A stretch of 64,000 bases of DNA from Hyphomicrobiales bacterium. Its GTDB lineage: Bacteria > Pseudomonadota > Alphaproteobacteria > Rhizobiales > Xanthobacteraceae. Location of the stretch: positions 62,001-126,000 of the forward strand of contig JAFKKH010000020.1 in assembly GCA_017305665.1 (NCBI GenBank), in the 5' to 3' direction. Positions 28,358 through 46,677 of the stretch are shown here, piece after piece. How positions within the stretch are numbered: the first letter of the stretch is position 1; each line of letters opens with the position of its first letter. Under the pieces are notes generated by a model. It was not told the DNA's origin. It worked only from the letters and a program-made list of their open reading frames with translations, and made no database searches. The translations under genes were made by a program, and so were the position numbers.

Positions 28358-28882
28358 TCATTTGATTCCCGTACAGCTTTCCTCGGCCTTCTTCGCGGCT
28401 TCGGATTTGTCTTCATGAGACGGAGGACGGCCGCCCGGAATCGCACCATTGGCGCGTGCGCGCAGATACACATATATATCGTCGATGTAGCACATCACGT
28501 TGACGTTGGTCGCAAACGACGGCATCACCTTGTCGTTGGCGGCATTGACGTTCTTGCGGCCGTTGGTGACGACGTTGATGAAGTCGCTGTAGCTCAGCGT
28601 CTTCAGCGAATTGGCCAGCGCCGGCGCGTAACTCGATCCTTCTCCGTTGGGCCCGTGACAGACATGGCAATCGGAGTGATAGCGGCGGAATCCGGAGAAC
28701 GTGTACCAGTCGACCGTCCCGTCCGGGCTGATCTTGTAGGTCGGGTTGCCGTCCTTATCCATATACTTGCCGTTGTCGGATGAAGCTACGGCTGGATCGC
28801 CGGATCCGTCCGCGTGGGCTACGCCGCTCACCAGCACACCCGCCACAACAGCGAGCACAAACTTCCAGGTTTTGATTTTCAC
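28358..28882 (-). CDS. xoxG: XoxG-like c-type cytochrome, electron acceptor for XoxF
   Basis: About 174 aa. A signal peptide (WKFVLAVVAGVLVSGVAHA) is followed by a mature protein with one haem-binding CHVCH at residues 72-76. The sequence DGNPTYKISPDGTVDWYTFSGFRRYHS before the haem is typical of the methanol-metabolism cytochrome family. It takes electrons from reduced XoxF in the periplasm. I chose the GTG at 28882 because GCGAGGAAA lies upstream and it gives a normal signal peptide; the frame is open to 28954. A hairpin lies between it and xoxF. Confidence 0.9.
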   Translation of the reverse strand: MKIKTWKFVLAVVAGVLVSGVAHADGSGDPAVASSDNGKYMDKDGNPTYKISPDGTVDWYTFSGFRRYHSDCHVCHGPNGEGSSYAPALANSLKTLSYSDFINVVTNGRKNVNAANDKVMPSFATNVNVMCYIDDIYVYLRARANGAIPGGRPPSHEDKSEAAKKAEESCTGIK

Positions 28883-28912
28883 GTAAGATTTCCTCGCAGA
28901 GGATGGAGACAA

Positions 28913-28946
28913 AATCGGCGCGCAGCAGAACGGCGGCGCGCCGATT
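28913..28946 (-). terminator. Hairpin between xoxF and xoxG (partial terminator or processing site)
   Basis: A perfect 11-bp inverted repeat (28913-28923 and 28936-28946) lies 21 bp past the xoxF stop. On the minus-strand transcript the stem is followed directly by TTTTG. It could stop part of the transcripts or protect the xoxF 3' end, giving more XoxF than XoxG. Confidence 0.7.
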
Positions 28947-28966
28947 GATGTCACTTCACAGTGCTC

Positions 28967-30841
28967 TTACTCCGACGGCAGAGCGAACACGGTCAGCGTC
29001 CCGCCGAGCGAGGTGTAGGACGCGAGACCCGCATAACCACCGACGGCGCCAAGACCCGCGGTATCGACGGTCTTGTCCTTGGTCGGCAGCTTGCCCTGGT
29101 CAACCGCATTGTGCCACGCCGCGGCATTTTGAGGCTGCAGCAGGCCAGCCGCAAGGCCGATACCCGCCCAACCGCCGACGCCGGAGAGTACGGCAATGTA
29201 TTGCTTGCCGCCGTGCTCATAGGTCATGACGTTGCCGATGATGCCGGATGGGGTCTTGAACTTGTAAAGCTCCTTGCCCGTCTTGGCATCGACCGCCTTC
29301 AGATAACCTTCGAGCGTACCGTAGAACACGACGCCGCCGGCCGTTGCGAGAGCACCACCCCACGCGGAGAACTGCTCCTTGTTCGACCAGACGATCTTCC
29401 CGGTCTTGCCGTCCCAGGCGATGAAGTTGCCCATGTTGGAATCACCCTTGGGCGGATACATCGCGACGGCGGCACCGACATAAGCCTGACCTGCGGTGTA
29501 GGCCACCTTGTAAGGCTCATAGTCCATGCAGACGTGGTTGGTCGGGACGTAGAACAACTGCGTCTCCGGGCTGTAGGCTGCGGGCTGCTCGTCCTTGGTA
29601 CCCAGTGCCGCCGGGCAAATGCCCTTCGAGTTGTGGTCCTCGCCGCCATGCTGCGTGGAATAGGCGTCGACCACCAGCGGACGACCGTAGGTCTTGGACG
29701 ACTTGTCCATGTCGATCTTGGTAGCCCAGTTCACGACCGGATCGAATTTTTCCGCAACCAGCAACTCGCCGGTGGCGCGATCAAGCGTGTAGCCAAAGCC
29801 GTTACGGTCGAAGTGCGTCAGCACTTTCCGCATTTTGCCGCCGATCTTCTGATCGGTGAGGATCATCTCGTTGACGCCGTCATAATCCCACTCGTCGTGT
29901 GGCGTCATCTGATAGATCCACTTGACCTTGCCGGTATCGAGGTCGCGCGCCCAGATCGACATCGACCACTTGTTGTCGCCAGGCCGCTGTACCGGGTTCC
30001 ATGTCGAGGGGTTGCCTGAACCGTAGTAAACGAGGTTCAGCTCGGGATCGTAGGAATACCAGCCCCATGTGGCACCGCCACCGATCTTCCATTGATCACC
30101 CTGCCAGGTCTTGATCGATGAATCCGGTCCGACTGGCTTGCCGAGCGACGTCGTCTTCTCGGGATCGATCAGCGTGTCGGAGTCCGGCCCTTCCGAATAG
30201 CCGCGCCAGGCGAGCTTGCCGTCCTTGATGTTGTAAGCGCTGACCCAGCCACGAACGCCGAATTCGCCGCCGGAAACGCCAACTAGCACCTTGTCCTTGA
30301 ATACGAACGGCGCATCCGTTCCGGACTGACCCTTGCCGGCCTCGCCGTCCATCACCGACCACACCTTGGCGCCAGTCTTGGCGTCGAGCGCAACCAGTGT
30401 CGTATCCGCCTGATGCAGGAAAATCTTGCCATCGGCATAAGCGACGCCACGATTGACCGTATCGCAGCACATGATCGGAATGACATTCGGATCCTGCCGG
30501 GGCTCATACTTCCAGATGATCTTGCCTTCGTGATTGAGATCGAGCGCATAGACCGTGTTCGGGAACGGGGTATGCACGTACATCACGTCGCCAACGACCA
30601 GCGGGCCGCCTTCATGGCCGCGCAGTACACCGGTCGAGAAGGTCCAGGCGACCTGTAGCTTCTTGACGTTCGACGCGTTGATCTGCTTGAGCTTCGAGAA
30701 CCGCGTGTTCGCGTCGTCACCTTGCTGCATGACCCATTGCTTGGGATCCTTGGCAAGTTTGTCCAATGCCTCATCGGCGCGAAGCGCCGATGTCTGCATG
30801 ACCATGAGGCTAAGACCGGTAGCGAGTAACACTTTGCGCAT
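28967..30841 (-). CDS. xoxF: XoxF, lanthanide-dependent PQQ methanol dehydrogenase
   Basis: A 624-aa eight-bladed propeller quinoprotein with a signal peptide ending near ALRADE. The adjacent cysteines (MCCDTVNRG, about residues 125-126) form the disulfide ring next to PQQ. By alignment from memory, metal ligands are Glu193 (GGEFG), Asn277 (GSGNPSTW) and Asp319, with an extra aspartate at 321 in DEWDYDG. That second aspartate marks lanthanide-using XoxF; calcium MxaF has alanine there. It oxidises methanol, and perhaps formaldehyde, in the periplasm. GGGAGGA precedes the start. Confidence 0.97.
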
Positions 30842-32583: not shown

Positions 32584-33786
32584 TTATTTAAGCGAGCATT
32601 TGGTCTCGGGGCGATCAAGACCGAGCGTATCGAGCGTCGATACCTGATGGAGGAAGCCTTCCTGAGGCGAAACGGATACCGTGTTTCTGCCATCGAACAA
32701 CAGGATCGGCTGCCGCAACTGCAAATTCCAGTCGCGAAGCGTCAACTTCTGACCCTTGAAAGCTGCGACAGAGAACGCCGGGCTTTTCAGGTACGCGAGC
32801 ATTTTCGCCGAATCGTTGGAGCCGGTTCGGGCCGCGGCTTCACCGATCATGCGAACCGCCGTCCACACCTGCATGTCGTGCGCTGTCATCGGGCGCTGGA
32901 ACGCCTTCGTAAAGCGGTTCTGCAGTTGCACGGCACCCCATTGATCAAACGCCGCGTCCCACGTGGTAGGCACTAATCCGGCAGAGCCGGCGACCGGGCG
33001 AGCGTCCCAGGTACGGTACGGCAGATAGCCAGCAAACACCTCGCTTTCGTCCGCCGCGACCAGAACATCATGGTCAGGAAGACTTTGCGTCACCACCGGC
33101 ATCTGCTTCTGGATCTCGGCAATACCGCTGTCGGTCCGCCGCGCGCCGCCGTTGTCCTTGAATACTCGTTCCTCGACGATCTTGGCGCCAAACCGCTTCG
33201 CTGCATGGCGCAACGCACCGGCGAACAGCTTGTCGTTGTCGTGCGACCCAACAATCAGCGCCCATTTGCGCCACTTCTTCCAGACCAGGTATTGCGCCAG
33301 CCCGTCGGCCAGCATGGAACGCGTGGGCGCGACATGAATGACATTGGCGCGGCAATTCTCTTCGCGCAGGCGCTCGTCCAGAGCCAAAGCGTTGAAAAAG
33401 GTTTCGCCACGCGCCTTGCCGGCATCAGCTGTCTTCAGAAGGCGGTCAGCATCGAGGCTCGTAACGATGAAGGACACGCCCTGATCGGCCAGCGCACTCA
33501 TGGCCGTGACCGGATCATCGTTGTCGCCGACGAGTTTCTCGATCAGCGTGTAATGCTGCTTGAGAAAGCGGCCGGTCGTATTGTCGTCTTTGATCGCCAG
33601 TTGAGCACCGGCAAGCCCATCGTTGGCGGCCGGCACGTCGATCAGCGATATCCGGATTCGCGACGGCGCCTGGTGCAGATAGCCGATCTTGATTTCCAGC
33701 GGCTGGTCGGCCCGGCCGGTTCCATTCAAAGCGATGAGCACGAGAACGCCAATCAGGAACCGGAGCAAATCGAATCTCCATGCCAT
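32584..33786 (-). CDS. Branched-chain-type ABC substrate-binding protein linked to quinoproteins
   Basis: About 400 aa with a signal peptide (WRFDLLRFLIGVLVLIALNGTGRA). The mature part is a Leu/Ile/Val-binding-type fold (GAQLAIKDDNTTGRFLKQHYTL, VSFIVTSLDADRLLK). It matches my memory of the binding protein of 'PQQ-dependent catabolism' ABC systems, a LutA-like role in Methylobacterium. There the system is needed for lanthanide uptake or sensing. I prefer the ATG at 33786 with GGAGCGG upstream; the frame extends to 33828. It is divergent from the beta-propeller gene. Confidence 0.82.
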   Translation of the reverse strand: MAWRFDLLRFLIGVLVLIALNGTGRADQPLEIKIGYLHQAPSRIRISLIDVPAANDGLAGAQLAIKDDNTTGRFLKQHYTLIEKLVGDNDDPVTAMSALADQGVSFIVTSLDADRLLKTADAGKARGETFFNALALDERLREENCRANVIHVAPTRSMLADGLAQYLVWKKWRKWALIVGSHDNDKLFAGALRHAAKRFGAKIVEERVFKDNGGARRTDSGIAEIQKQMPVVTQSLPDHDVLVAADESEVFAGYLPYRTWDARPVAGSAGLVPTTWDAAFDQWGAVQLQNRFTKAFQRPMTAHDMQVWTAVRMIGEAAARTGSNDSAKMLAYLKSPAFSVAAFKGQKLTLRDWNLQLRQPILLFDGRNTVSVSPQEGFLHQVSTLDTLGLDRPETKCSLK

Positions 33787-33971
33787 GTTCGACCGCTCCA
33801 TGCGCTCGTTTCGATTGCGCCGCAACATCGCCGACCGAAGCTCGCGCCTGTTTGAGCTTTCACGCTACTCCATCTATCGTCCGAAGCAAGCAACGCCGCC
33901 GGCTGATAAAAGTTGAAACGGCCGCGATTTGTTCGCCGGGCGTTTCGGGCTGCATGTTGGAGAACACACCC

Positions 33972-34955
33972 ATGTTCGCTTTGCGCTGGATCACAGTAAC
34001 AGGCCTGTCTTTGTTCGCGTTTCTTGTCTCATTCGATCCCGCCTTTGCGTTCCTTGCCTATGTTTCGAATGAAAAGGGCAACTCGATCTCGGTGATCGAC
34101 ACCGACAAAATGGAGACCGTCGACACCATCAAGACGGGACAGCGGCCGCGCGGCATCGAAGTTACTCATGACGGCAAATTGATTTTTGTCGCCGTCGGTG
34201 ACGACGACAAGATACAGACCTTCGATACCAAGACCCGCGAGGACGCCGGCGATTTACCGTCAGGCGCGGACCCCGAACAGTTCATCCTCGATCCATCCGG
34301 GAAATTCCTCTACGTCGCGAATGAGAACGATTCGATGGTGACGATCATCGACACGGCGAAACGTACGGCCATTGGACAAGTGTCGGTCGGTACGGAACCC
34401 GAAGGCATGGCAGTCAGCCCGGATTCCAAGATGCTGATATGCACCTCCGAGACGACGAGCATGGTTCACTTCATCGATCCGGCGACCCGCGAAGTTGTCG
34501 ACAATCTGCTCGTCGGCTCCCGGCCGCGTTTTGCTGAATTCAAGTCCGATGGATCGGAATTGTGGGTCACATCGGAAATCGGCGGGAGCCTCGCGATCAT
34601 CGACCCGACAACACGAAAGATCAAAAAAACCGTGACATTCGAAGTTCCGGGCCTGAGATCCGAATCGATCCAGCCGGTCGGCATCAATATCACCAAAGAC
34701 GGCAAGCTGGGCTTCATCGATCTGGGGCCAGCCAATCGCGTGGCGGTGGTCGACGGCGTCACGCACGCCGTCCTGAAATATTTGCTGGTGGGTCAACGCG
34801 TCTGGCACGGCGCATTCACACCCGACGAAAAGTACCTGCTCGTTGCCAATGGCGTTTCAAACGACGTTTCGGTGATCGACGTCGCAGCTCAGAAAGTGAT
34901 CAAATCCATTCAGGTCGGCGAACTGCCGTGGGGCGTTGCCTTCGGGCCGAAATAG
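33972..34955 (+). CDS. YVTN-type beta-propeller protein linked to quinoproteins
   Basis: About 327 aa. A signal peptide (TVTGLSLFAFLVSFDPAFA) is followed by repeats of about 42 residues that each hold a strand set like NSISVIDTDKMETVDTIKTG, with phrases such as GTEPEGMAVSPD and GELPWGVAFGPK. This is a seven-bladed YVTN propeller in the periplasm. Such proteins occur with the PQQ-linked ABC genes and may bind a metal complex or act as scaffold. The start at 33972 has GGAG upstream. Function is not established. Confidence 0.85.
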   Translation: MFALRWITVTGLSLFAFLVSFDPAFAFLAYVSNEKGNSISVIDTDKMETVDTIKTGQRPRGIEVTHDGKLIFVAVGDDDKIQTFDTKTREDAGDLPSGADPEQFILDPSGKFLYVANENDSMVTIIDTAKRTAIGQVSVGTEPEGMAVSPDSKMLICTSETTSMVHFIDPATREVVDNLLVGSRPRFAEFKSDGSELWVTSEIGGSLAIIDPTTRKIKKTVTFEVPGLRSESIQPVGINITKDGKLGFIDLGPANRVAVVDGVTHAVLKYLLVGQRVWHGAFTPDEKYLLVANGVSNDVSVIDVAAQKVIKSIQVGELPWGVAFGPK

Positions 34956-36274: not shown

Positions 36275-36799
36275 CTATTTTGTAGGAGTGCCGTCGCCTG
36301 ATGGCGCGTCGGGCGGGAGCCGGTTCCGCACCAGAAAGCGCACGCCGTGCTCATAAGCCTCAGGTGTGTCGCCGCGAATCTGGCCGCCAAGGTGTGCAAT
36401 CCTGGCGCCGTTGGAAGCGTCGATGATCCAGATGTCCATGGATGAGATCAGCGACGACACCTTGTGAACCACGGACACGACTGCGTAGGCCGCACCGGCC
36501 TTACGCGCCACAGGCAGAAAGCAGTCGCCGCATCGATACCGTGGCACGGTTTTTGCGATCTCGGCACTGAACGGTTCGAGATCAATGGGAGAATAACGTC
36601 CGGTTTTCTCCAGTGCCTGCGACAGGACGCGCGTCGCCATCGCGAGCCTTTCAGCCCGGTCGGGCTGCGGAGGCTCACCGCTGGTGTCGTAGATCTCGAA
36701 GGGAAAGATGGCCGCTGCCGGCGCAGCCATGACACCGGTGCAACCCACGGCACAGACAACAGCTACCAATATCCTCGCCGACATTGCTGAGGACGCCAT
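36275..36799 (-). CDS. DUF3280-like exported protein
   Basis: About 174 aa. A signal peptide (LVAVVCAVGCTGVMAAPAAA) leads to a TolB N-domain-like fold with FPFEIYDTSG, a CGDC pair (RYRCGDCFLPVARKAGAAYAV) and a closing part (EAYEHGVRFLVRNRL). It looks like the DUF3280 family, often found near quinoprotein genes. The function is unknown. The start is uncertain: the frame opens at 36844 and a later ATG is at 36784. Confidence 0.7.
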   Translation of the reverse strand: MASSAMSARILVAVVCAVGCTGVMAAPAAAIFPFEIYDTSGEPPQPDRAERLAMATRVLSQALEKTGRYSPIDLEPFSAEIAKTVPRYRCGDCFLPVARKAGAAYAVVSVVHKVSSLISSMDIWIIDASNGARIAHLGGQIRGDTPEAYEHGVRFLVRNRLPPDAPSGDGTPTK

Positions 36800-36942
36800 C
36801 GTGACTCGATCCCGCGCGATCCCGAAGTCGTTTTCTGTTAACACGCACGCGGCGCGATGGCATCATCCATTTTTCGGCCACTACGGATGCAAGCTCTCGC
36901 AAGTGACGGAGAAAGTCATCAATGTTCCAGGAGCAGCGCAAC

Positions 36943-37284
36943 ATGACCAAGGCGATTATTCTGGCGACTTTCATTTTGGCATTCACGTCCGCGGGTGCGT
37001 TGGCAAAGGACACCCGGTTCTGGAACCTGACCGCTAACACGATCACCGCGCTGCAACTTTCACCAGCCGGCAAAAACGAATGGGGCCGCAATCAGACCGA
37101 CAACGACCGCGACCGCACCGTGGATCACGATGAGCGGCTGAAGATCACAGATACAGCCACCGGCGTCTACGACGTGAAATTCACCGACAAGAGCGGACGG
37201 ACCTGCGTGGTCCCGAATGTCGAGATCAAGGCAAATGGGATTTTCACGATCGAAGAGAAGGTTTTGAAAGACTGCACCAAATAA
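36943..37284 (+). CDS. Exported 113-aa protein with a lanmodulin-like EF-hand loop
   Basis: A signal peptide (IILATFILAFTSAGALA) is followed by a mature chain of about 92 aa that looks beta-rich. Residues 53-64 (DNDRDRTVDHDE, 37099-37134) have Asp at 1, 3, 5 and 9 and Glu at 12, with Thr at 7 and Val at 8. This matches the lanmodulin loop type D-x-D-x-D-G-T-I-D-x-x-E, except Gly6 is Arg. Cys88 and Cys111 may form a disulfide. Only one loop is present and helices around it are not obvious. A periplasmic lanthanide or calcium binder is inferred from loop and location. GGAG precedes the ATG. Confidence 0.78.
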   Translation: MTKAIILATFILAFTSAGALAKDTRFWNLTANTITALQLSPAGKNEWGRNQTDNDRDRTVDHDERLKITDTATGVYDVKFTDKSGRTCVVPNVEIKANGIFTIEEKVLKDCTK

Positions 37285-37482: not shown

Positions 37483-38481
37483 ATGAATGACCGAGTGAGA
37501 ACCAACTCTCTATTCGGCGGTCTGGTAGTGGCACTCTGTCTCATAGTCGGGACAGCCCCGACGCTGGCCGCAGAGACGTTGCGCATCGGACTGCAGACCA
37601 CCGGCACATTTGCCTGGCAATTGGACGTGATCCGCCGCCACAACCTTGCGAAGCGCGCCGGTCTCGATCTGAAAATCAGCGGCTTTGCATCTCCCGATGC
37701 CGGCAAGCTCGCCATCAACAGTGGCTCGGTCGACATCGCCGTCGTCGATTTTCTGTGGGTCGCTCGCGCCCGTGCGCTCGGCGCCAAATTGCTGTTCTAT
37801 CCGTACTCCAGCGCGGTGGGCGCAATCATGGTGAAGAATGATTCGCCGCTGAACAAACTTAAGGACCTCAAAGGTCACGTTCTCGGCGTTGCCGGTGGCC
37901 CGCTCGACAAAAGCTGGCTGATCGTCCAGGCCGCCGCCATTCGCCAGGGCATCGATCTCAAGAAAAGTGCGACGCTGCAATATGGCGCGCCGCCGCTGAT
38001 TTCCCAGAAATTGCAACAGGGCGAGGCTGAAGCAAGCCTCAATTTCTGGAATTTCTGCGCCGACCTGGAGGCGCGAGGCTATCGTCGCATCTTCGAGGTG
38101 CGCGACGCTGAAACCTCCCTGGGGGTGAAAGAACCGGTCGCCATGATCGGTTATGTGTTTTCCGAGTCATTCGCCGCCACACACCGAAGTGCGATCGACC
38201 GCTTCATCGAAATCACGCAGCAAGCCAACGATATCATGCTGCAATCGGATCAAGAGTGGGACGCGCTGCGCCCCCTGATGAACGCGGAGGACGACCGGAC
38301 CTTCAAGGCCTATCGCGACCGAACCAGAGAGGGCATGCCGCGACGGCCCGTGACCGCCGAAGTCACCGATGCCAGCGCGCTGTTCCATACTCTCGCCGCG
38401 ATCGGCGGCTCGGACCTCGTAGGGCCGTCGCAAGAACTCGACCAGAGTCTCTACTATCAACCGGCCCGGCGCGGAGACTAA
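37483..38481 (+). CDS. NitT/TauT-type ABC transporter substrate-binding protein
   Basis: A 332-aa protein with a signal peptide ending near TLAAETLRIG. The mature domain is of the SsuA/NMT1 type (WQLDVIRRHNLAKRAGLDLKISGFASPDAGKLAINSGSVDIAVVDFLWVARAR). This fold delivers nitrate, sulfonates, thiamine precursors and other small anions or organics. It is the first gene of a three-gene importer set inside the quinoprotein island. The substrate is not known. Confidence 0.85.
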   Translation: MNDRVRTNSLFGGLVVALCLIVGTAPTLAAETLRIGLQTTGTFAWQLDVIRRHNLAKRAGLDLKISGFASPDAGKLAINSGSVDIAVVDFLWVARARALGAKLLFYPYSSAVGAIMVKNDSPLNKLKDLKGHVLGVAGGPLDKSWLIVQAAAIRQGIDLKKSATLQYGAPPLISQKLQQGEAEASLNFWNFCADLEARGYRRIFEVRDAETSLGVKEPVAMIGYVFSESFAATHRSAIDRFIEITQQANDIMLQSDQEWDALRPLMNAEDDRTFKAYRDRTREGMPRRPVTAEVTDASALFHTLAAIGGSDLVGPSQELDQSLYYQPARRGD

Positions 38482-38484
38482 GCG

Positions 38485-39222
38485 TTGCAGAGATTTCTTT
38501 CGCTAGCCGTCATGATCACGACCTGGGCTATCGCCGCAGCCCTGGTGCATTCGCGGTTGCTCCCCAGCCCGCTCACGGTCGGCGCGACCACTCTCGCGGA
38601 AATTCGCTCGGGCGAATTGCCATTCCAGATGGCCTGCACCCTTGGACGCGTCATCGGCTCCTTCGCTATCGCAATGCTCCTCGGCAGCACCATGGGTTAT
38701 GCGATGGGACGCTTGAAGCCATTGGACCGTTTCGCCGATTCATGGCTGGTCGTACTGATCAACATGCCGGCGCTGGTCATCATCATCTTCGCCTATATCT
38801 GGATCGGCCTGAACGAGACCGCTGCGATTTTGGCGGTCGCCATCAACAAGCTGCCGAATGTCATTGTGGTGATGCGCGAAGGCGCCCGCGCGCTCGATCC
38901 CGAGATCGACGAAATGGCGCGCGCTTTCCAGTTCTCCAGAATCAAGAGAATCCGTCATGTCGTGATCCCACAGCTTGCTCCTTATCTGGCGGCCAGTTCG
39001 CGCTCCGGCCTCTCCATCGTCTGGAAGATCGTGCTGGTTGTCGAACTGCTCGGGCGGCCCAATGGCGTGGGCTTCGTACTCGGCTCGGCATTCTCTCTGT
39101 TCGACATGGCGAAGATCCTGAGCTATGCGATTTGCTTCATCGTACTGATGTTGGTCATCGAAAGCCTTGTCGTGCAACCGCTCGAACGACGCGCAAACCG
39201 CTGGCGGCGCCGCCTTGCTTGA
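38485..39222 (+). CDS. NitT/TauT-type ABC transporter permease
   Basis: A 245-aa membrane protein with about six helices and an EAA loop (EIDEMARAFQFSRIKRIRHVVIPQLAPYL). The start appears to be the TTG at 38485, three bases after the binding-protein stop, with GGAG upstream. It belongs to the BPD_transp_1 group and works with the flanking binding protein and ATPase. Confidence 0.85.
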   Translation: MQRFLSLAVMITTWAIAAALVHSRLLPSPLTVGATTLAEIRSGELPFQMACTLGRVIGSFAIAMLLGSTMGYAMGRLKPLDRFADSWLVVLINMPALVIIIFAYIWIGLNETAAILAVAINKLPNVIVVMREGARALDPEIDEMARAFQFSRIKRIRHVVIPQLAPYLAASSRSGLSIVWKIVLVVELLGRPNGVGFVLGSAFSLFDMAKILSYAICFIVLMLVIESLVVQPLERRANRWRRRLA

Positions 39223-39940
39223 GCTCCGCATCGACGCCAAGAGCTACCGATCGGCAGAGGGTACGCCGATCGAGGTCGTTCGTGACCTGAAGCTTCAGCT
39301 CGAGGCCGGATCGTTCGGCGCGCTGATCGGCCCGTCCGGCTGCGGCAAGACCACCATCCTGAAGATCGCGGCCGGGCTCGACACCGACTTTCGCGGTGAA
39401 GTTCGAAGGCCGGAATCCGGTCGGCTCGGAATGGTGTTTCAGGAGCCGCGCCTGCTGGCATGGCGCACCGTCGATCAAAACATCCGGCTTGCGCTTCCGC
39501 CGGAGCGAGCGGGCGTCGATCTGACAGACCTCATTGAAACCCTCGGCCTCGGTGCTCACCTCGCGCTATATCCCGGCGAATTGTCGCTCGGACTTGCGCG
39601 CCGCGTCGCTATCGCCCGCGCTTTTGCCGTCGATCCGGATTTTCTGCTACTCGACGAGCCCTTCGTGTCGCTCGACGAGGCAACAGCCGACCGGCTGCGC
39701 GGCGAACTGATTGCGCTGACCGAACGAACCAAAGCGACGACTCTGCTTGTCACGCATGATCTGCCGGAGGCCGTGCAACTGGCTGATCGGCTGTTTTTCC
39801 TGTGCGATCGACCGACGCGGATCGTTCTGGAGCAAGAACTGCCCCCGCGTTACACGCGCAGCAAGGATACGGTGACATCGATCAGCGATGAAATGCGCGC
39901 GCTGGCGGTGCAGGCCGTGGCAGGCGCCCACGGAAACTGA
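39215..39940 (+). CDS. NitT/TauT-type ABC transporter ATPase
   Basis: About 241 aa with Walker A (GPSGCGKTT), Q-loop (VFQEPRLLAW), signature (LSLGLARR, altered from LSGGQ), Walker B (FLLLDEPFVSLDE) and switch histidine (LVTHDLPEA). I chose the TTG at 39215, which overlaps the permease stop, because the upstream part only repeats permease sequence in another frame; the open frame starts at 39167. The signature LSLG replaces LSGG, which is unusual but seen in some subfamilies. Confidence 0.85.
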   Translation: MLELRIDAKSYRSAEGTPIEVVRDLKLQLEAGSFGALIGPSGCGKTTILKIAAGLDTDFRGEVRRPESGRLGMVFQEPRLLAWRTVDQNIRLALPPERAGVDLTDLIETLGLGAHLALYPGELSLGLARRVAIARAFAVDPDFLLLDEPFVSLDEATADRLRGELIALTERTKATTLLVTHDLPEAVQLADRLFFLCDRPTRIVLEQELPPRYTRSKDTVTSISDEMRALAVQAVAGAHGN

Positions 39941-39943
39941 AGG

Positions 39944-40564
39944 TCAGACCAGCCGGCTCTCGATCGCGAAGCGCACGAGTTCCGACAACGAGCGCAGACC
40001 GAGCTTCTGGCGAATGATTGAAGATGCATTGGCAATCGTCTTGTATGACGAATGAACCAGCCATGCGATCTCGGAAAGGTTCTTGCCGTTGCTGAGCAGC
40101 CGCAAGATCTCGATCTCGCGCGTCGTTAGCTTCGACAGCGGACTTTGAGCGAAAGCCGGTCCTGCGAAGGCCACGCTTCGCGCGATCGCCGCCGGCAGGT
40201 AGACCCCACCATTGCCGACTTCACGAATGGCCTCGACGAGGTCGTTGGGATCGCCGGATTTCGAGACATAACCCTTGGCGCCAACCTCGATTGCGCGCGC
40301 GGCGAACACCGGATCATCGTTCATGCTGAACATGATGATGCGCGCGGTGGCCACATGCGCAAGAATGCGCCGTGCCAGCTCAAATCCCGAAACCGTCGGC
40401 AGATTGATGTCAAGGACGCAGATATCGGGCTTTTCGGCGACGAACATCCGCTCGCCACTCTCTGCGTCGGACGCCTCCAGGATCGCGATCTCCGGGTCGC
40501 CCGCGAGCAGCGCACGGCACCCCGAAGCCACAATCGGATGATCATCGACGATCAGAACACGCAT
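39944..40564 (-). CDS. NarL/LuxR-family response regulator
   Basis: A 206-aa regulator with a receiver domain (VLIVDDHPIVASGCRALL, phospho-acceptor in CVLDINLPTVSGFE, KGYVSKSGDP) and a LuxR-type DNA-binding domain (LSKLTTREIEILRLLSNGKNLSEIAWLVHSSYKTIANASSIIRQKLG). It is divergent from a histidine kinase that starts about 210 bp away, clearly its partner. Regulators of this type (ExaE/AgmR, PedR2) control quinoprotein alcohol dehydrogenases in Pseudomonas. Confidence 0.92.
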   Translation of the reverse strand: MRVLIVDDHPIVASGCRALLAGDPEIAILEASDAESGERMFVAEKPDICVLDINLPTVSGFELARRILAHVATARIIMFSMNDDPVFAARAIEVGAKGYVSKSGDPNDLVEAIREVGNGGVYLPAAIARSVAFAGPAFAQSPLSKLTTREIEILRLLSNGKNLSEIAWLVHSSYKTIANASSIIRQKLGLRSLSELVRFAIESRLV

Positions 40565-40773
40565 CGGCGTTGGCCCGAATCCCGTGTCAGCCTTCGTTAT
40601 TGCATCGCATCGAACAGAGCAGCAAACGTATCATTCGCCTCAAACCTGTTCTGGTCAGGATTGTGCATCCCGGCCGCAGTTGCGGTACGCTTCAATTAGA
40701 TAACCACCCTTTTTGTCTGTCAACGTTCCTCTTGATGCAACAGCGGCGCGGGCCGCGATACTGGACGAAGACG

Positions 40774-42237
40774 ATGTGGCAGAAATTATCCTTGCGCTCT
40801 CGCCTCACCTTGCTGCTGGCGCTGGTTCTCACGTTGGGTCTCGCGATCAACATCGCGCGGCTGGTGTTCGAAGCTGGCCCTCGCGTTCAGGCAGAAGACC
40901 AGAGCGTGATTCGGCTGGCTCGCGAGTTCACCGAAACATTGGTGGCGGGATTGAATGAAATGCGCGATCCCGACGCGCGGCTCATACAGATCGTCCAAAA
41001 CCTCAACCGGTTGCGCCACGTCAGTATCACGCGGCAGGAAGATACGGCGGATAACTCCGAGACGGCCGCGAACAGCGATAATAACGAGAAGCGATCCTCG
41101 GTTCCGGCGTGGTTCGTTTCCCTCATCCACCCGGAAAAGACCGCAGTCAGCGTTCCGATTTCGATCGGCGACCGGGCGGAACATCTGGTGATCACGTCAC
41201 ATCCGGACGACGAGATGAACGAAATCTGGGACGGGATCATGACCCAGCTCGAAGTCGGCTCCGCGATCGCGGTGGCGCTTTTTCTGATCACGATGATGGT
41301 GGTCAACCGGGCGCTGGCGCCCCTTCAGTCGCTTTCCGACGCCATGACCGATATCGAATCCGGTAGCTACGATACACGCGTAAAGCCCGACGGCTCGCCC
41401 GAACTCGCCGCTATCTGCATCAAGCTCAATCACCTTGCAGCAACGCTTGGCAAAGCCGTCGAAGAAAAGCGGCAACTGGCCGAGCGCGCGGTTTCTCTGC
41501 AGGATGCAGAGCGCAAGGAGATTGCGCGCGAGCTCCACGATGAGGTTGGCCCCTATCTCTTTGCCCTGAGAGCGCATGCCAGTTCGCTGATGCGGACCGC
41601 CGGCTTATCCGAGCCGAACGCCGAGGTTCTACACAAGCACGGCACTGCGATTCTTGAGCACGTCAACGCCTTGCAACAATTCAATCGGCGGGTGCTCGAA
41701 CGACTGCGGCCGATTGGCCTTGCGGAACTCGGCCTGCGCGAGGCGATCGGTGCATTGCAGCGCCTGTGGCGCGAGACGCATCCGGGCGTGGCGATCGAAA
41801 CTGCGATCTCGTCTTCCCTGGGCGCCGCCGGCGAGACCGCGGAATTGACGATCTACCGCATCGTCCAGGAGGCCCTGACCAACGTATTCCGGCACGCCCG
41901 CGCGACCGAAGTCGAGATTACAGTTCAGCCTGCATCCTATCGGCAGATAGGAACCACATCTGATAGGATCGAAGCAACCAAAGTCAGCGTGCGCGACAAC
42001 GGCGCTGGTCTTCCGCCCGATCACAAGCAAGGTTTCGGCATGATCGGGATGCGCGAGCGGGTGCTTGCGCTGGGCGGCACCATGACGGTCGCCTCGACAG
42101 CCCGAGGGGTAACTGTCGAGGCGCTCGTTCCCAATGCCCCCTCCATGCCACCGAGTTCTGATAGCTTGCGCAAGTACATCCGCGATAGGACTCATTCGCG
42201 GTCGGACCGAGAAATGCTGCCTAGAACTTTGCCCTGA
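40774..42237 (+). CDS. Membrane sensor histidine kinase (HisKA_3 type)
   Basis: About 487 aa. One N-terminal helix (RLTLLLALVLTLGLAINIARLVF) is followed by a periplasmic domain of about 120 aa that ends in an acidic stretch (HPDDEMNEIWDG). The second helix (GSAIAVALFLITMMVVN), a HAMP domain, the phospho-site ARELHDEVGPYLFALRAHA and an ATPase domain (DNGAGLPPDHKQGFGMIGMRERV) follow. It pairs with the divergent NarL-type regulator. The frame is open from 40570, and an ATG at 40735 is also possible. Its last 17 bp overlap the convergent receptor gene. Confidence 0.9.
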   Translation: MWQKLSLRSRLTLLLALVLTLGLAINIARLVFEAGPRVQAEDQSVIRLAREFTETLVAGLNEMRDPDARLIQIVQNLNRLRHVSITRQEDTADNSETAANSDNNEKRSSVPAWFVSLIHPEKTAVSVPISIGDRAEHLVITSHPDDEMNEIWDGIMTQLEVGSAIAVALFLITMMVVNRALAPLQSLSDAMTDIESGSYDTRVKPDGSPELAAICIKLNHLAATLGKAVEEKRQLAERAVSLQDAERKEIARELHDEVGPYLFALRAHASSLMRTAGLSEPNAEVLHKHGTAILEHVNALQQFNRRVLERLRPIGLAELGLREAIGALQRLWRETHPGVAIETAISSSLGAAGETAELTIYRIVQEALTNVFRHARATEVEITVQPASYRQIGTTSDRIEATKVSVRDNGAGLPPDHKQGFGMIGMRERVLALGGTMTVASTARGVTVEALVPNAPSMPPSSDSLRKYIRDRTHSRSDREMLPRTLP

Positions 42238-44782
42238 TACCGGCATACGCGGAGAGCGGCATGCCCGGCACGAAGGAGCGGGGATCGCTCAGTTGCGCCA
42301 TCAGATTGGGGGCACCGCCGGCACTCGTAAAGCCACCGGCCCCGAAGAACGTGCCGCCGAGATAGTAGTGCTGGTTGAAGACGTTGTTGATCAGGCCGAA
42401 CACCTCAATATTCGGCGTGATTCGATATGAGGTGTGCAGGTTGACGACAGTATAGGCCGGCACCTTCGGGCTCTGGTTGGTGGAGTCGCCAGCGAGCCAT
42501 TGGCTACCCACGACGTTCACGTCGGCTCCGACCTTCCATGCGTCCGTGGCTTGGTACTCGATGCCGGCCTTGAATCGATGCGCGGGAATGCCCGGAATAT
42601 GGTCGCCCGGCTTGACATTGATAAATTGCACGTCGTCGTTATTTGGGTCGGTCAAAGCATTTGGATTGCCCGGAGACGACAGTGTGTTCGCGCTTTGGTA
42701 GGTCGCGTCGATATAGGTGTAGTTTGCGTAGGCATTCCATCGCCCGAATCGATAATCGAGCTTGGCCTCGATGCCTTGCCGCAGCGTCTGTCCCGCATTC
42801 TGGAAGAAGCCGAAATTATTCACGCCAAGCGGGCTTGTGACCTGGATGATGTCATCGTCGGACATGGTCCGGAACACGCCGAGGCCCCACGTTAGCATGC
42901 CGAACCGTGCATCGCGTCCCCAGCCACCGCGCAGTCCTGCCTCGATAGTATGCGACACGACTTGCTTGAGTGGCGGATCGGCCACCAGAAAGCTGTCAAT
43001 CATGCAGGGATGGTTGGGATCAGAACAGCCGAGCTCGAGCGGCGTCGGCGCTCGATTGGCCTCTGAATAGCCGGCATAGGCGGTGAGGTTCGGAGTGATC
43101 TTGAAGGTGCCGCCGATTACCGGGTTGAAGCGCTGGAAGCGGTTGTTGCTGTTGAGCAGGTCATTGGTTCCGGTCTGGTCCTGCAAATCGATCTGCGCGT
43201 AATTGAATCGCCCGCCCGCCGTCACCGAAAACCTGTTGGTTACATCGAACGTATCGGTGAGGTAGACGCCGGTGTAGGTGTTGGTGGCACGCAGATCGAC
43301 CGGGCTGAGGCCGGCATCCGGCTGGTTGATGAAGACCCCGGTGCCGCTGACGAACAGATTGTTCGGATCGATTGTCCCGAGTTCGCTGGTTGCAGTGAAT
43401 TGTGTATTCCCATGATCGACACTGACGCCCATCACGACGTGGTTATCGTGCCCGAACAGCCGGTCCGTATTGGTCAACTGGGCTGTGCCGCCGAAGCTGT
43501 TGGTCGCAGCCTGGTTGCGATCGATTTCGCCAAGGAAAGCGTTCCCGAGCGTGTTCGGTGTCGGTGGACCACCGCTCGCTGGACCTGAGATCGGAAGGCC
43601 ATCGCCGATGCACAAGTTCGTGGGATCGTCGCAGGGCGCGACATCCGTGCCGTTGCCGTCGATATGGGACTGCCGGAAGCCGCGGAAGTAGGCGTTACCT
43701 TGGAACGACCATGTGTCCGAAAAATTGTGATTCAGGGTCGCGTTAACGAAAGCGAGTTGAAGCAGCGTCGACTGCGGCCAGGTATAGACGCTCGACCACC
43801 GCTGATTGAGCATCTGGATCGGCGTTGCCGCGACATTCCCGAGCAAATTGCTGGCGCCGGTGAAATTGACGTGGAATTCGGTGTCGTCGTTGCGCGCACC
43901 AACGTCCACGTACATGCGATTCACGTGAGACGAATTTGCGAAGTCGCGCCAGCCTCTGTCGTAAGCGGATTCGAACGCCGCGTATGCGGAGACGTTGTCC
44001 TTCTGGGCGCCGGCCTGCACGCTGCCCTGCACGCGTCCGTAGGAGCCCCCGAACAGTTCGGCCTCGGAGCCCTGATAGGTGAAGCCGTTCTTCATCTGGA
44101 TGCTCAGCGCGCCACCGATCGCATTGAGGCCGAAGACAGGATTGTTGGGAAAGAGCGAAACCCGATCAATGGCCTTCTCTGGAATGAAATCCCAATTGAC
44201 GACGTCGCCCCAGGACTCGTTGATCCGCACGCCGTTCTGGTAGACCGCGATACCCTGCGGCGTCCCCTGAACTGGCGAGGCGGTGAAACCGCGGTAGTCG
44301 AGATCGCGCTGGAACGGATTGCCGGTCTGGTCGCCCAACGTAACGCCGGGCAATTTCCGATTCACGGAATCAAGAAAGTTCGTCGAATAGTTGCGGCTGA
44401 AATCCGCCGATGTCAGCACCTCGGTATTGGACGGAACCTTGTCGCGATCAATCAGGCTCGCGTCGCGATCGGAAGCCCCCGGGGCCCTTGAGGCCGCCGT
44501 CTGCACTATCGGCGCCTGAACGCGCGCGCGTCGTACTCGGGTGGTTCGCGGTCTGCTTGCTACCTGCCGACTTGCCGGCTTCGGACTGCGCGTCCCGGAT
44601 AGCGGCGATGGAGCAATCACGGTAACTGGCGGCAGTTCGGTCGATGCGGATGCGTTAGCCTGAGCGCGTGCGCTCGTAGGTTCCATTGCGATCCCAACGG
44701 CAAGCAGGACGGCCGTGGCTCCGCACATGTGCGGGAAGAAGAATGGATATCGAGTCGCTGCACGTAACAACGCAACGTTCAT
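42221..44782 (-). CDS. TonB-dependent outer-membrane receptor
   Basis: About 853 aa. A signal peptide (ending near SARAQANAS) is followed by a TonB-box-like ELPPVTVIAPS, a basic proline-rich linker, a plug domain (PSNTEVLTSADFSRNYS, VNWDFIPEKAIDRVSL) and a 22-strand barrel ending in AGIRAKF. In Methylobacterium the receptor LutH lies in the same kind of island and brings in lanthanides with a chelator; this protein is a good candidate for that role (inference). I chose the ATG at 44782 with GGGTGGG upstream; the frame opens at 44866. Confidence 0.9.
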   Translation of the reverse strand: MNVALLRAATRYPFFFPHMCGATAVLLAVGIAMEPTSARAQANASASTELPPVTVIAPSPLSGTRSPKPASRQVASRPRTTRVRRARVQAPIVQTAASRAPGASDRDASLIDRDKVPSNTEVLTSADFSRNYSTNFLDSVNRKLPGVTLGDQTGNPFQRDLDYRGFTASPVQGTPQGIAVYQNGVRINESWGDVVNWDFIPEKAIDRVSLFPNNPVFGLNAIGGALSIQMKNGFTYQGSEAELFGGSYGRVQGSVQAGAQKDNVSAYAAFESAYDRGWRDFANSSHVNRMYVDVGARNDDTEFHVNFTGASNLLGNVAATPIQMLNQRWSSVYTWPQSTLLQLAFVNATLNHNFSDTWSFQGNAYFRGFRQSHIDGNGTDVAPCDDPTNLCIGDGLPISGPASGGPPTPNTLGNAFLGEIDRNQAATNSFGGTAQLTNTDRLFGHDNHVVMGVSVDHGNTQFTATSELGTIDPNNLFVSGTGVFINQPDAGLSPVDLRATNTYTGVYLTDTFDVTNRFSVTAGGRFNYAQIDLQDQTGTNDLLNSNNRFQRFNPVIGGTFKITPNLTAYAGYSEANRAPTPLELGCSDPNHPCMIDSFLVADPPLKQVVSHTIEAGLRGGWGRDARFGMLTWGLGVFRTMSDDDIIQVTSPLGVNNFGFFQNAGQTLRQGIEAKLDYRFGRWNAYANYTYIDATYQSANTLSSPGNPNALTDPNNDDVQFINVKPGDHIPGIPAHRFKAGIEYQATDAWKVGADVNVVGSQWLAGDSTNQSPKVPAYTVVNLHTSYRITPNIEVFGLINNVFNQHYYLGGTFFGAGGFTSAGGAPNLMAQLSDPRSFVPGMPLSAYAGIRAKF

Positions 44783-45028
44783 GGCGCCCACCCTGTTGCC
44801 GCGGCTCGTCATTGTCCTCAACAAACCTGCGCTTGAGAGACTGCTCAAGGAGGCTGCGTTTGGCAAACGCGAATCCGTTGCGCGTTCGGGATTTTTTTTC
44901 CAACTGATCGGGAAAAATTCCCGGCTTCTGATCGAGCCAGCGGCTCGGCCTCGCGCGTTCTACGCCGGCATGAAGGTCACGTTCTGAAACATCAAAACGA
45001 ACCTCCAGTCGCGAGCACACCGGGAATT
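44783..45028. promoter_or_regulatory. Upstream region of the TonB receptor gene with a palindrome
   Basis: About 246 bp without a supported gene. It contains the perfect palindrome CGGGAA-AAA-TTCCCG (44909-44923) and a run of eight T at 44892-44899 on the plus strand. Either could be part of the receptor promoter; the palindrome may be an operator or the end of the upstream ABC transcript. Confidence 0.45.
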
Positions 45029-45877
45029 TCAGGCTGGTGGCCCACCACCACGGCGGGCGAGGAAGCCGCGAGCCGGATCGTAGGCGAGTATCGCACCAAA
45101 GAGGAACACGGCGGTGCAGCCGACCACTACGCCCAGGGAAATCCACGCGACCCGCCCGTACAGTGCGAAGCGAATGAGCTCGGTCGCATGCGTGAAGGGA
45201 TTGAGCTCGCAGATGTAATACAATAGCGGGCTCGACTCCTTGACTCGCCATAGCGGGTATAGCGCCGAGGATGCGAAGAACATCGGGAAGATCACGAAAT
45301 TCATTACGCCTGCAAAATTCTCCAGTTGCTTGATCAGCGACGAGATCAGCATTCCCAGGGCGCCCAGCATGAAGCCGCTGAGCAGCAATGCGGGCAGCAG
45401 CGCAAAATAACCGATCGGAGGCGCCTCGATCTCCCAGAACCAGGCGATCACCAGAAAAGCGTAAGCCTGCAGGACGGAAACCAACGTGCCTGCCAGGAGT
45501 TTCGAGGCCAGCAGCCACCAGCGCGGGAATGGACTGACCAGCAGTGTGCGCATTCCCCCGGTCTCCCGATCATAGACCATGGTCAGCGACGACTGCATGC
45601 CATTGAAAAGCTGGATCATCGCAATCAGTCCCGGCGCGATATAGACCTCGTACAGTACATAGGTCTCGTAAGGCGGAATGATCGAAACGCCGAGTACCTG
45701 ACGAAATCCCGCGGCGAAAATAAACAGCCACACCAGCGGACGGACCAGCGCGGAAATGAAACGTTCGCGCTGATGGATAAAGCGCAGGGTTTCACGCCAG
45801 ACGATGCCCCTGAGACAGATGAAATACTGCGCCAGCGAAAAGCTGTGTTTGCTGGTTGCGCCGGCGATCACCGTCAT
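45029..45877 (-). CDS. ABC-2-type permease linked to quinoproteins
   Basis: A 282-aa membrane protein with about six helices in the ABC-2 pattern (FISALVRPLVWLFIFAAGFRQVLG, then LLVSPFPRWWLLASKLLAG and the late FPMFFASSALYPLWRVKE). It pairs with the upstream ATPase, whose stop overlaps its start (ATGA). It matches my memory of the permease in PQQ-dependent catabolism islands (LutF-like). ABC-2 permeases usually export, so the direction of transport here is an open question. Confidence 0.88.
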   Translation of the reverse strand: MTVIAGATSKHSFSLAQYFICLRGIVWRETLRFIHQRERFISALVRPLVWLFIFAAGFRQVLGVSIIPPYETYVLYEVYIAPGLIAMIQLFNGMQSSLTMVYDRETGGMRTLLVSPFPRWWLLASKLLAGTLVSVLQAYAFLVIAWFWEIEAPPIGYFALLPALLLSGFMLGALGMLISSLIKQLENFAGVMNFVIFPMFFASSALYPLWRVKESSPLLYYICELNPFTHATELIRFALYGRVAWISLGVVVGCTAVFLFGAILAYDPARGFLARRGGGPPA

Positions 45878-46677
45878 CGGTCTGTTTCCGGTTCGATCTG
45901 ATCGGCCGTCCCAGTCAGCCGGTTGAACGCCTCGCGCAAATCGGTACCGCCAGACCGATCTATCACGTCGCGCACCGTGCCCTGCGCAAGCACCCGACCC
46001 TTGTGCAGCACCACGACGTCGTCGCCGTCGCTGACCTCGTCGATCAAGTGCGTCGCCCAGAGCACGCCGATACCCTGCTCCACCGACAAGCGGCGAACGT
46101 GATCGAGAATATCGGCACGCGCCTTGATATCGAGACCGACGGTGGGCTCATCCAACAGCAACAGGCGTGGCTGATGGAGCAGCGAACGGGCGATCTCGAT
46201 ACGCCGCATTTGGCCGATGGAAAGATTGCCGACGCGATCGAGGCTGCGGTCGGCCATGGCGACCCGATCCAGTACCTGCGCAATCAACTCGTTGGCGCGC
46301 CTGGTACCGATGCCATGCAGGGCGGCGTGGTACATCAGGTTCTGCCGCACCGAAATGTCGATGTCGAGTGCGCGAGACTGAAACACGACTCCAAGCTGGC
46401 TCAACGCCGCACCGGCTTCACGCCCGACATCATGGCCAAAGATGCGTATTTGACCCGACCGGATCGCGTAGAGCCGCGTAATCAGGGAAAACAGCGTCGA
46501 CTTGCCGGCACCGTTCAATCCAAGCAACACCGTAAACGACGACTGCCGAACATCCAGTCTCACGTCGTTCAACGCAACGCGCGCACCATAGCGATGGCTA
46601 ACGTTGTCAACCGCAAGCGCCGAAATCTGAGCACGATCGAATGGCGTCATGACCATTCCCGAAAATTCCGTACCCAT
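45874..46677 (-). CDS. ABC-2-type transporter ATPase linked to quinoproteins
   Basis: A 267-aa ATPase with Walker A (GLNGAGKST), signature (LSIGQMRR), Walker B (LLLLDEPTVGLD) and switch histidine (WATHLIDE). It is the partner of the ABC-2 permease, with an ATGA overlap. It resembles the ATPase of PQQ-linked ABC systems (LutE-like). A shorter start at an internal ATG (MTPFDRAQ) is possible. Confidence 0.88.
   Translation of the reverse strand: MGTEFSGMVMTPFDRAQISALAVDNVSHRYGARVALNDVRLDVRQSSFTVLLGLNGAGKSTLFSLITRLYAIRSGQIRIFGHDVGREAGAALSQLGVVFQSRALDIDISVRQNLMYHAALHGIGTRRANELIAQVLDRVAMADRSLDRVGNLSIGQMRRIEIARSLLHQPRLLLLDEPTVGLDIKARADILDHVRRLSVEQGIGVLWATHLIDEVSDGDDVVVLHKGRVLAQGTVRDVIDRSGGTDLREAFNRLTGTADQIEPETDR

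Follow-up and report, generated by a model that had tools for sequence, protein, structure and literature searches.

What does a small protein with a single acidic loop, apparently exported to the periplasm, do inside a gene island built around XoxF and the Lut proteins? The question is raised by the gene at 36943..37284 (+ strand) of the window, by which we mean the whole stretch of 64,000 nucleotides that was analysed. To our knowledge, few lanthanide-binding proteins are known outside enzymes. Lanmodulin (LanM) is a helical protein with four EF-hand loops, most of which carry Pro at position 2, and landiscernin is the LutD protein of Methylobacterium extorquens. Together with lanpepsy (LanP), these two are named as small periplasmic lanthanide binders in the portions of the literature at hand. 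An earlier note on this DNA had read the loop as a lanmodulin-type EF-hand and had supposed that the protein might take the place of lanmodulin.

The gene encodes a protein of 113 amino acids. The presence of AGGAG 8 bases 5' of the ATG at 36943, together with Met at the same start in several homologues, makes this start credible. The N-terminal stretch MTKAIILATFILAFTSAGALA, followed by KDT, resembles by eye a Sec signal peptide (residues 1-21, 36943..37005, + strand) with cleavage after Ala21. The protein is therefore described here as apparently exported to the periplasm, with a mature form of 92 residues (22-113). Cys88 and Cys111 (37204..37275, + strand) are invariant in all 68 homologues of our alignment and probably form a disulphide.

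The gene was said to sit in a XoxF island, and analysis of the window shows this to be a XoxF/Lut island. The XoxG-like cytochrome c gene (28358..28954, - strand, TIGR03874) is located next to that of the XoxF-type methanol dehydrogenase (28967..30841, - strand), which contains WDYDG at residues 318-322; the second Asp of this motif is what we take to mark the XoxF type. A LutA-like substrate-binding protein (32584..33828, - strand, TIGR03863) and a PQQ-associated beta-propeller (33780..34955, + strand, TIGR03866) are encoded closer to the acidic-loop gene. On its far side are the genes for a TonB-dependent receptor (42221..44866, - strand), which is LutH-like in position and shares about 39-41% identity with Methylobacterium-like lut-cluster receptors, a LutF/PedC-type permease (45029..45877, - strand, TIGR03861) and a LutE-like ATPase (45874..46677, - strand). 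The island also holds glutathione-linked formaldehyde genes, an SsuABC-type importer and a two-component pair. The importer genes, in the order SsuA/SsuC/SsuB (37483..39940, + strand), are co-directional with the acidic-loop gene; this importer is a recurrent neighbour and we assign no substrate to it. The response regulator and histidine kinase genes (39944..42237) separate the importer genes from that of the TonB receptor. The pair is kept in the relatives L002-L004, L006-L008 and L011, and a role as lanthanide or methanol sensor is possible. The divergent neighbour of the acidic-loop gene is a DUF3280 gene (36275..36844, - strand). A DUF3280 gene also adjoins lutA in 3 of 7 lut regions of other genomes (29-36% identity), and for this reason its product may be a lut component. 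No Rfam family was found in the window at the gathering score. The family protein, LutF, XoxF and LanM were not found, at the thresholds used, in the eight further genomes that were sampled from the genus, which suggests that the island (26597-51049) was horizontally acquired by the lineage of the window, or was retained there and lost elsewhere in the genus.

The acidic loop, DNDRDRTVDHDE, spans residues 53-64 (37099..37134, + strand), and the ORF translation shows the residues that had been reported for it: Asp at loop positions 1, 3, 5 and 9, Thr at 7, Val at 8 and Glu at 12. Its conservation was analysed in an alignment of 68 distinct homologues from the fetched loci, two of which lack the acidic loop. 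A core of the form N-D-x-D-x-x-V-D-x-D-E-R (N54, D55, D57, V60, D61, D63 and E64, then R65) is near-invariant: Asn54 is kept in 61 of the 68 sequences, Asp55 in 67, Asp57 in 64, Val60 in 64, Asp61 in 64 (with Glu in 3 more), Asp63 in 65, Glu64 in 66 and Arg65 in 64. Seven close sequences of equal length, one of them from the window, show nothing but synonymous differences in the codons for N54, D55, D57 and D63. When the mature sequence was shuffled 200,000 times, the strict loop pattern arose in 3 shuffles. A loose EF-like pattern arises by chance in 1.2% of them, and it is therefore the conservation that has to carry the argument. The earlier note had made its reading depend on such conservation of the acidic residues among homologues, and the alignment does show this conservation.

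The assignment of the loop as a lanmodulin-type EF-hand, in contrast, finds no support in the comparison. Position 53, which is position 1 of an EF loop, is acidic in the protein of the window but only in 10 of the 68 homologues; the residues found there are Leu (38), Lys (13), Asp (8), Ala (5) and Glu (2), so that Leu or Lys occupies it in 51. Position 58, EF position 6, is mostly Lys (36) or Gly (22). Since positions 53 and 58 vary and the core stays, the motif is real but its conserved core departs from the canonical EF register. Conserved residues also flank the loop on both sides, with Gly43 (63/68) and Gly48 (64/68) before it and Gly74 (68/68), 10 residues past Glu64 and preceded by Pro73 in 44 of the 68, after it; flanking helices as in an EF-hand are therefore unlikely. 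Profile comparison with a LanM alignment (hhalign) pairs the loop alone, over 16 columns and with a probability of 4%. Judged from these alignments, the protein is probably not an EF-hand. It is nevertheless like lanmodulin in being a small, apparently exported protein of lanthanide users with Asp at loop positions 3, 5 and 9 and Glu at position 12, and Asp at position 9 (Glu in three homologues) is a likeness of its own; the two genes also co-occur and sometimes adjoin. The differences are that lanmodulin has four loops where the 113-residue protein has one, that lanmodulin mostly has Pro at loop position 2 where Asn stands in 61 of the 68 homologues, and that the acidic-loop family, beta-rich in sequence, lacks a conserved acid at position 1 and has no homology to lanmodulin that profile comparison detects.

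A relationship to landiscernin was considered and rejected. In a lut cluster of a Methylobacterium-like genome, lutE/lutF are directly preceded by a gene for an 80-residue protein that matches the landiscernin entry of the PDB (9c8w) at 5e-19. This LutD protein shows no similarity to the acidic-loop protein, and neither the latter nor its profiles A1 and A4 match 9c8w. Among the fetched loci that were searched, a LanD-like sequence is present only in nine Methylobacterium-like ones and not in the window. The likeness between the two is that of small proteins from a lut gene cluster, periplasmic in the case of landiscernin and apparently so in that of the acidic-loop protein; in sequence, as far as these searches reach, the acidic-loop family is unrelated to both lanmodulin and landiscernin. 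Lanpepsy, in the literature portions at hand, is a periplasmic lanthanide binder outside the EF-hand kind. It has two PepSY domains, however, and the Pfam scan finds none in the acidic-loop protein.

Further searches give the family no place among described domains. The Pfam scan yields no model for the protein, a sub-threshold EVI2A match being the only one, and nothing above the cut-off for four distant or divergent relatives; no NCBIfam model matches the family, and searches of the PDB sequences with sequence and profiles give no assignment. No match to the protein was found among plasmids at E 1e-4. With the wide alignment A4, the profile search pairs 65 columns, weakly and at E 0.002, with an X-module of a cellulosomal scaffoldin (PDB 4wi0_B), a fold of the beta-sandwich kind. 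The same match has an E of 0.28 with alignment A1 and is too weak for a fold assignment; the acidic-loop protein is perhaps a beta-sandwich.

Homologues with 47-76% identity are present in 13 contigs assigned to Bradyrhizobium, Xanthobacteraceae, Roseiarcus, Hyphomicrobiales, Rhizobiales, Alphaproteobacteria and one Acetobacteraceae MAG. Of 248 genomes from the family to which the window belongs, 53 carry the acidic-loop gene. In a sample of the order, 33 of 397 genomes were matched, 11 of these by weak matches only, and in a sample of the class 2 of 142, namely the genome of the window and one weak match. Outside the family, the acidic loop occurs in seven order-level genomes (G299, G330, G416, G451, G526, G559 and G563). 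Loci from 8 of the 11 weak-match genomes contain a family-like protein lacking the acidic core in six cases and, among the proteins listed, no clear family protein in two. Distant relatives without the acidic core (L066-L071 and L075), several of which have paired Cys at similar locations, come mostly from genomes without XoxF or LutF, L075 (G013) being the exception. This distribution suggests either a gain of the loop in the lanthanide lineage or its loss outside that lineage.

The link to the lut, xoxF and lanM genes was followed across the 248 genomes of the family (53 carriers and 195 non-carriers of the acidic-loop gene), a sample in which related genomes are not independent. LutF/PedC is encoded in 52 of the 53 carriers versus 46 of the 195 non-carriers. 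XoxF with at least 65% identity, counted among the matches listed, which reach below the identities used, is encoded in 45 carriers versus 36 non-carriers, leaving 8 of the 53 carriers without it. For LanM, 42 clear matches (best E of 4.3e-30 or lower) were set apart from 10 divergent ones (E of at least 5e-26, one at 2.4e-25), a split made after the scores had been seen. Clear LanM is present in 39 of the 53 carriers versus 3 of the 195 non-carriers, or 13 of 195 with the ten divergent matches added, and 39 of the 42 genomes with clear LanM have the acidic-loop gene. With all 52 LanM matches counted, the 248 genomes divide into 39 with both genes, 14 with the acidic-loop gene only, 13 with LanM only and 182 with neither. 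Among the 81 XoxF-positive genomes, 33 have both the acidic-loop gene and clear LanM, 12 the acidic-loop gene only, 1 LanM only and 35 neither. Shuffling of LanM within genera (114 of the 248 genomes, those with a genus listed) gave a mean of 31.8 and a maximum of 38 double carriers versus the 39 observed (p about 5e-5). A genomic link of the family to xoxF, which the earlier note had made one test of its reading, thus holds in this sample, as do links to lut and lanM.

The seven order-level loop carriers outside the family show a similar tie to LutF (6 of 7, not G559) and to XoxF with at least 67% identity (5 of 7, not G559 and G563). LanM is present in 2 of the 7, one of them divergent. Since these carriers mostly have LutF and XoxF and rarely LanM, the tie to LutF/XoxF genomes is wider than that to LanM. 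The 11 genomes with weak matches only have neither LutF nor XoxF at the thresholds used and show one weak match to LanM. Lut genes are located beside the homologue only in G563; none were seen in the stretches from G299, G330, G416, G451 and G526 or on the short contig of G559. In genus g128, which we read as Methylobacterium-like, the acidic-loop gene is present only in G416 among the eight genomes with LutF, and lanM is near lut in 5 of these eight.

Gene neighbourhoods were compared in 28 loci from the family, each about 19-20 kb long and selected from the larger number fetched. At the thresholds used, a SoxYZ-like fusion is encoded near the acidic-loop gene in 23 of the 28, a xoxJ-like gene in 22, lutF in 17, xoxF (at least 60% identity) in 17, xoxG in 16, ssuA in 15 and lanM in 5. 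lanM lies within 5.1 kb of the acidic-loop gene in 15 of the 39 double carriers; distances were computed for 17 of the 39, and the other 22 were judged from coordinates to have the genes far apart or on different contigs. In the g3 genomes lanM directly adjoins the acidic-loop gene, and in G134, G192, G232 and G239 it lies downstream on the same strand, with 120-130 bases between the matched stretches. Of seven close relatives, L006, L007 and L008 have lanM in the same stretch as the acidic-loop gene; in the fetched DNA of the remaining four, L002-L005, no lanM was found.

It had been stated correctly that the window lacks lanmodulin, as a tblastn search with LanM finds no match in it at E 1e-3. 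The genome of the window, however, does encode a four-loop LanM of 133 amino acids on contig C6 (10904-11296, E 1.8e-48; L209:9902-10303), and we therefore reject a replacement of lanmodulin in this genome. Its lanM lies apart from the lut/xoxF island, whereas L006, L007 and L008 carry lanM and the island together in one stretch. As a general reading, too, the idea that the protein replaces lanmodulin as lanthanide carrier appears the least probable of those considered here, since the two genes strongly co-occur overall and genomes with both (39) outnumber those with the acidic-loop gene only (14) or clear LanM only (3). What speaks for it is that no LanM was found at E up to 1e-10 in 14 of the 53 carriers, five of which (G086, G125, G140, G156 and G234) are assembled as a single contig with a listed completeness of 99% or more. 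These 14 carriers indicate that the gene occurs without LanM in some lineages and that the partnership of the two is usual but not obligate.

The neighbourhoods also bear on explanations that do without a lanthanide in the loop. The protein might serve as an accessory of the SsuABC-type importer, its loop binding calcium or being structural and the lanthanide link being indirect, with the importer a part of the methanol island. ssuABC adjoins the acidic-loop gene in the window and is present in the stretch at 15 of the 28 loci; 14 of these 15 have both on one strand, and in 8 the gap between them is 51-184 bases. In the other 13 loci, however, ssuABC is outside the stretch, and 11 of these show xoxF, lutF, soxYZ or lanM there (L077 and L086 show only a LutE-like gene); moreover, the direct neighbour in the g3 genomes is lanM. 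We regard an importer accessory as unlikely. A factor for the maturation or docking of XoxF/XoxG or another quinoprotein, with a loop making protein contacts and holding no metal, would fit the frequent xoxF, xoxG, xoxJ-like and SoxYZ-like neighbours. Against such a factor, which we consider rather improbable, stand the closer tracking of LanM than of XoxF, seen among the 81 XoxF-positive genomes, and the spacing of the invariant acids, which is similar to that of metal loops. A beta protein that binds calcium and has a general role in the periplasm could also have merely hitch-hiked in the island, and in most sampled genomes of other families the homologue is indeed located away from the lut genes. 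The absence of the gene from 195 of the 248 family genomes and its concentration in lut and lanM carriers make a general function of this kind quite improbable.

The explanation we favour, and to which we give about an even chance, is that of a periplasmic metal binder, with a lanthanide as the likeliest metal, that would work together with the Lut and XoxF proteins and usually alongside LanM. The protein would be small, beta-rich and probably disulphide-linked, and its one acidic loop would most likely bind a single metal ion, in the first place a lanthanide, with the near-invariant acids 55, 57, 61, 63 and 64 supplying the ligands. Its partners in the periplasm would be XoxF, the LutAEF importer, the LutH-type receptor and usually lanmodulin, and it may hold a lanthanide or pass it on among these proteins. 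From sequence and gene distribution we infer export, disulphide, fold, the binding of a metal, a preference for lanthanide over calcium and the role in hand-over. Among the observations that run counter to the favoured explanation are the 36 XoxF-positive and 46 LutF-positive genomes of the family without the acidic-loop gene, and the Leu or Lys that most homologues have at position 1, where a canonical EF loop has a ligand. The loop could also bind calcium or merely shape a turn. A bolder version, which we put forward tentatively and hold to be possible rather than probable, is that the family represents a class of dedicated lanthanide chaperone structurally unrelated to those described. Such a chaperone would be a disulphide-braced beta-sandwich with a single acidic loop on its surface, would swap lanthanide with lanmodulin, possibly through a metal-bridged contact, and would provide a missing handling step in users of the Bradyrhizobium type; LanD was not found in the loci of this type that were examined.

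The literature searched, which covered few subscription papers, contains no description of the acidic-loop family that we could find. A study of lanthanides in Bradyrhizobium reports homologues of lutA, B, E, F and G, and the words 'lanM' and 'hypothetical' are absent from its main text (PMC12628762). A published RNA-seq set for Bradyrhizobium sp. USDA 3456 contrasts growth on methanol with growth on succinate, La being supplied in both. According to the available part of another study, one Bradyrhizobium genome encodes lanmodulin at a site away from XoxF, and in Acidobacteria and Gemmatimonadetes the neighbours of xoxF3 include genes for conserved hypothetical proteins of small size, about 110-130 residues (PMC10875860).

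In the family studied here, the acidic-loop proteins are a concrete candidate for the movement of lanthanides between uptake and XoxF. Their candidate status rests on the tracking of lanM in one bacterial family, the occasional adjacency of the two genes, the near-invariant acidic loop and a scaffold unrelated to those of known binders. The same scaffold makes the protein a possible new starting point for rare-earth separation.
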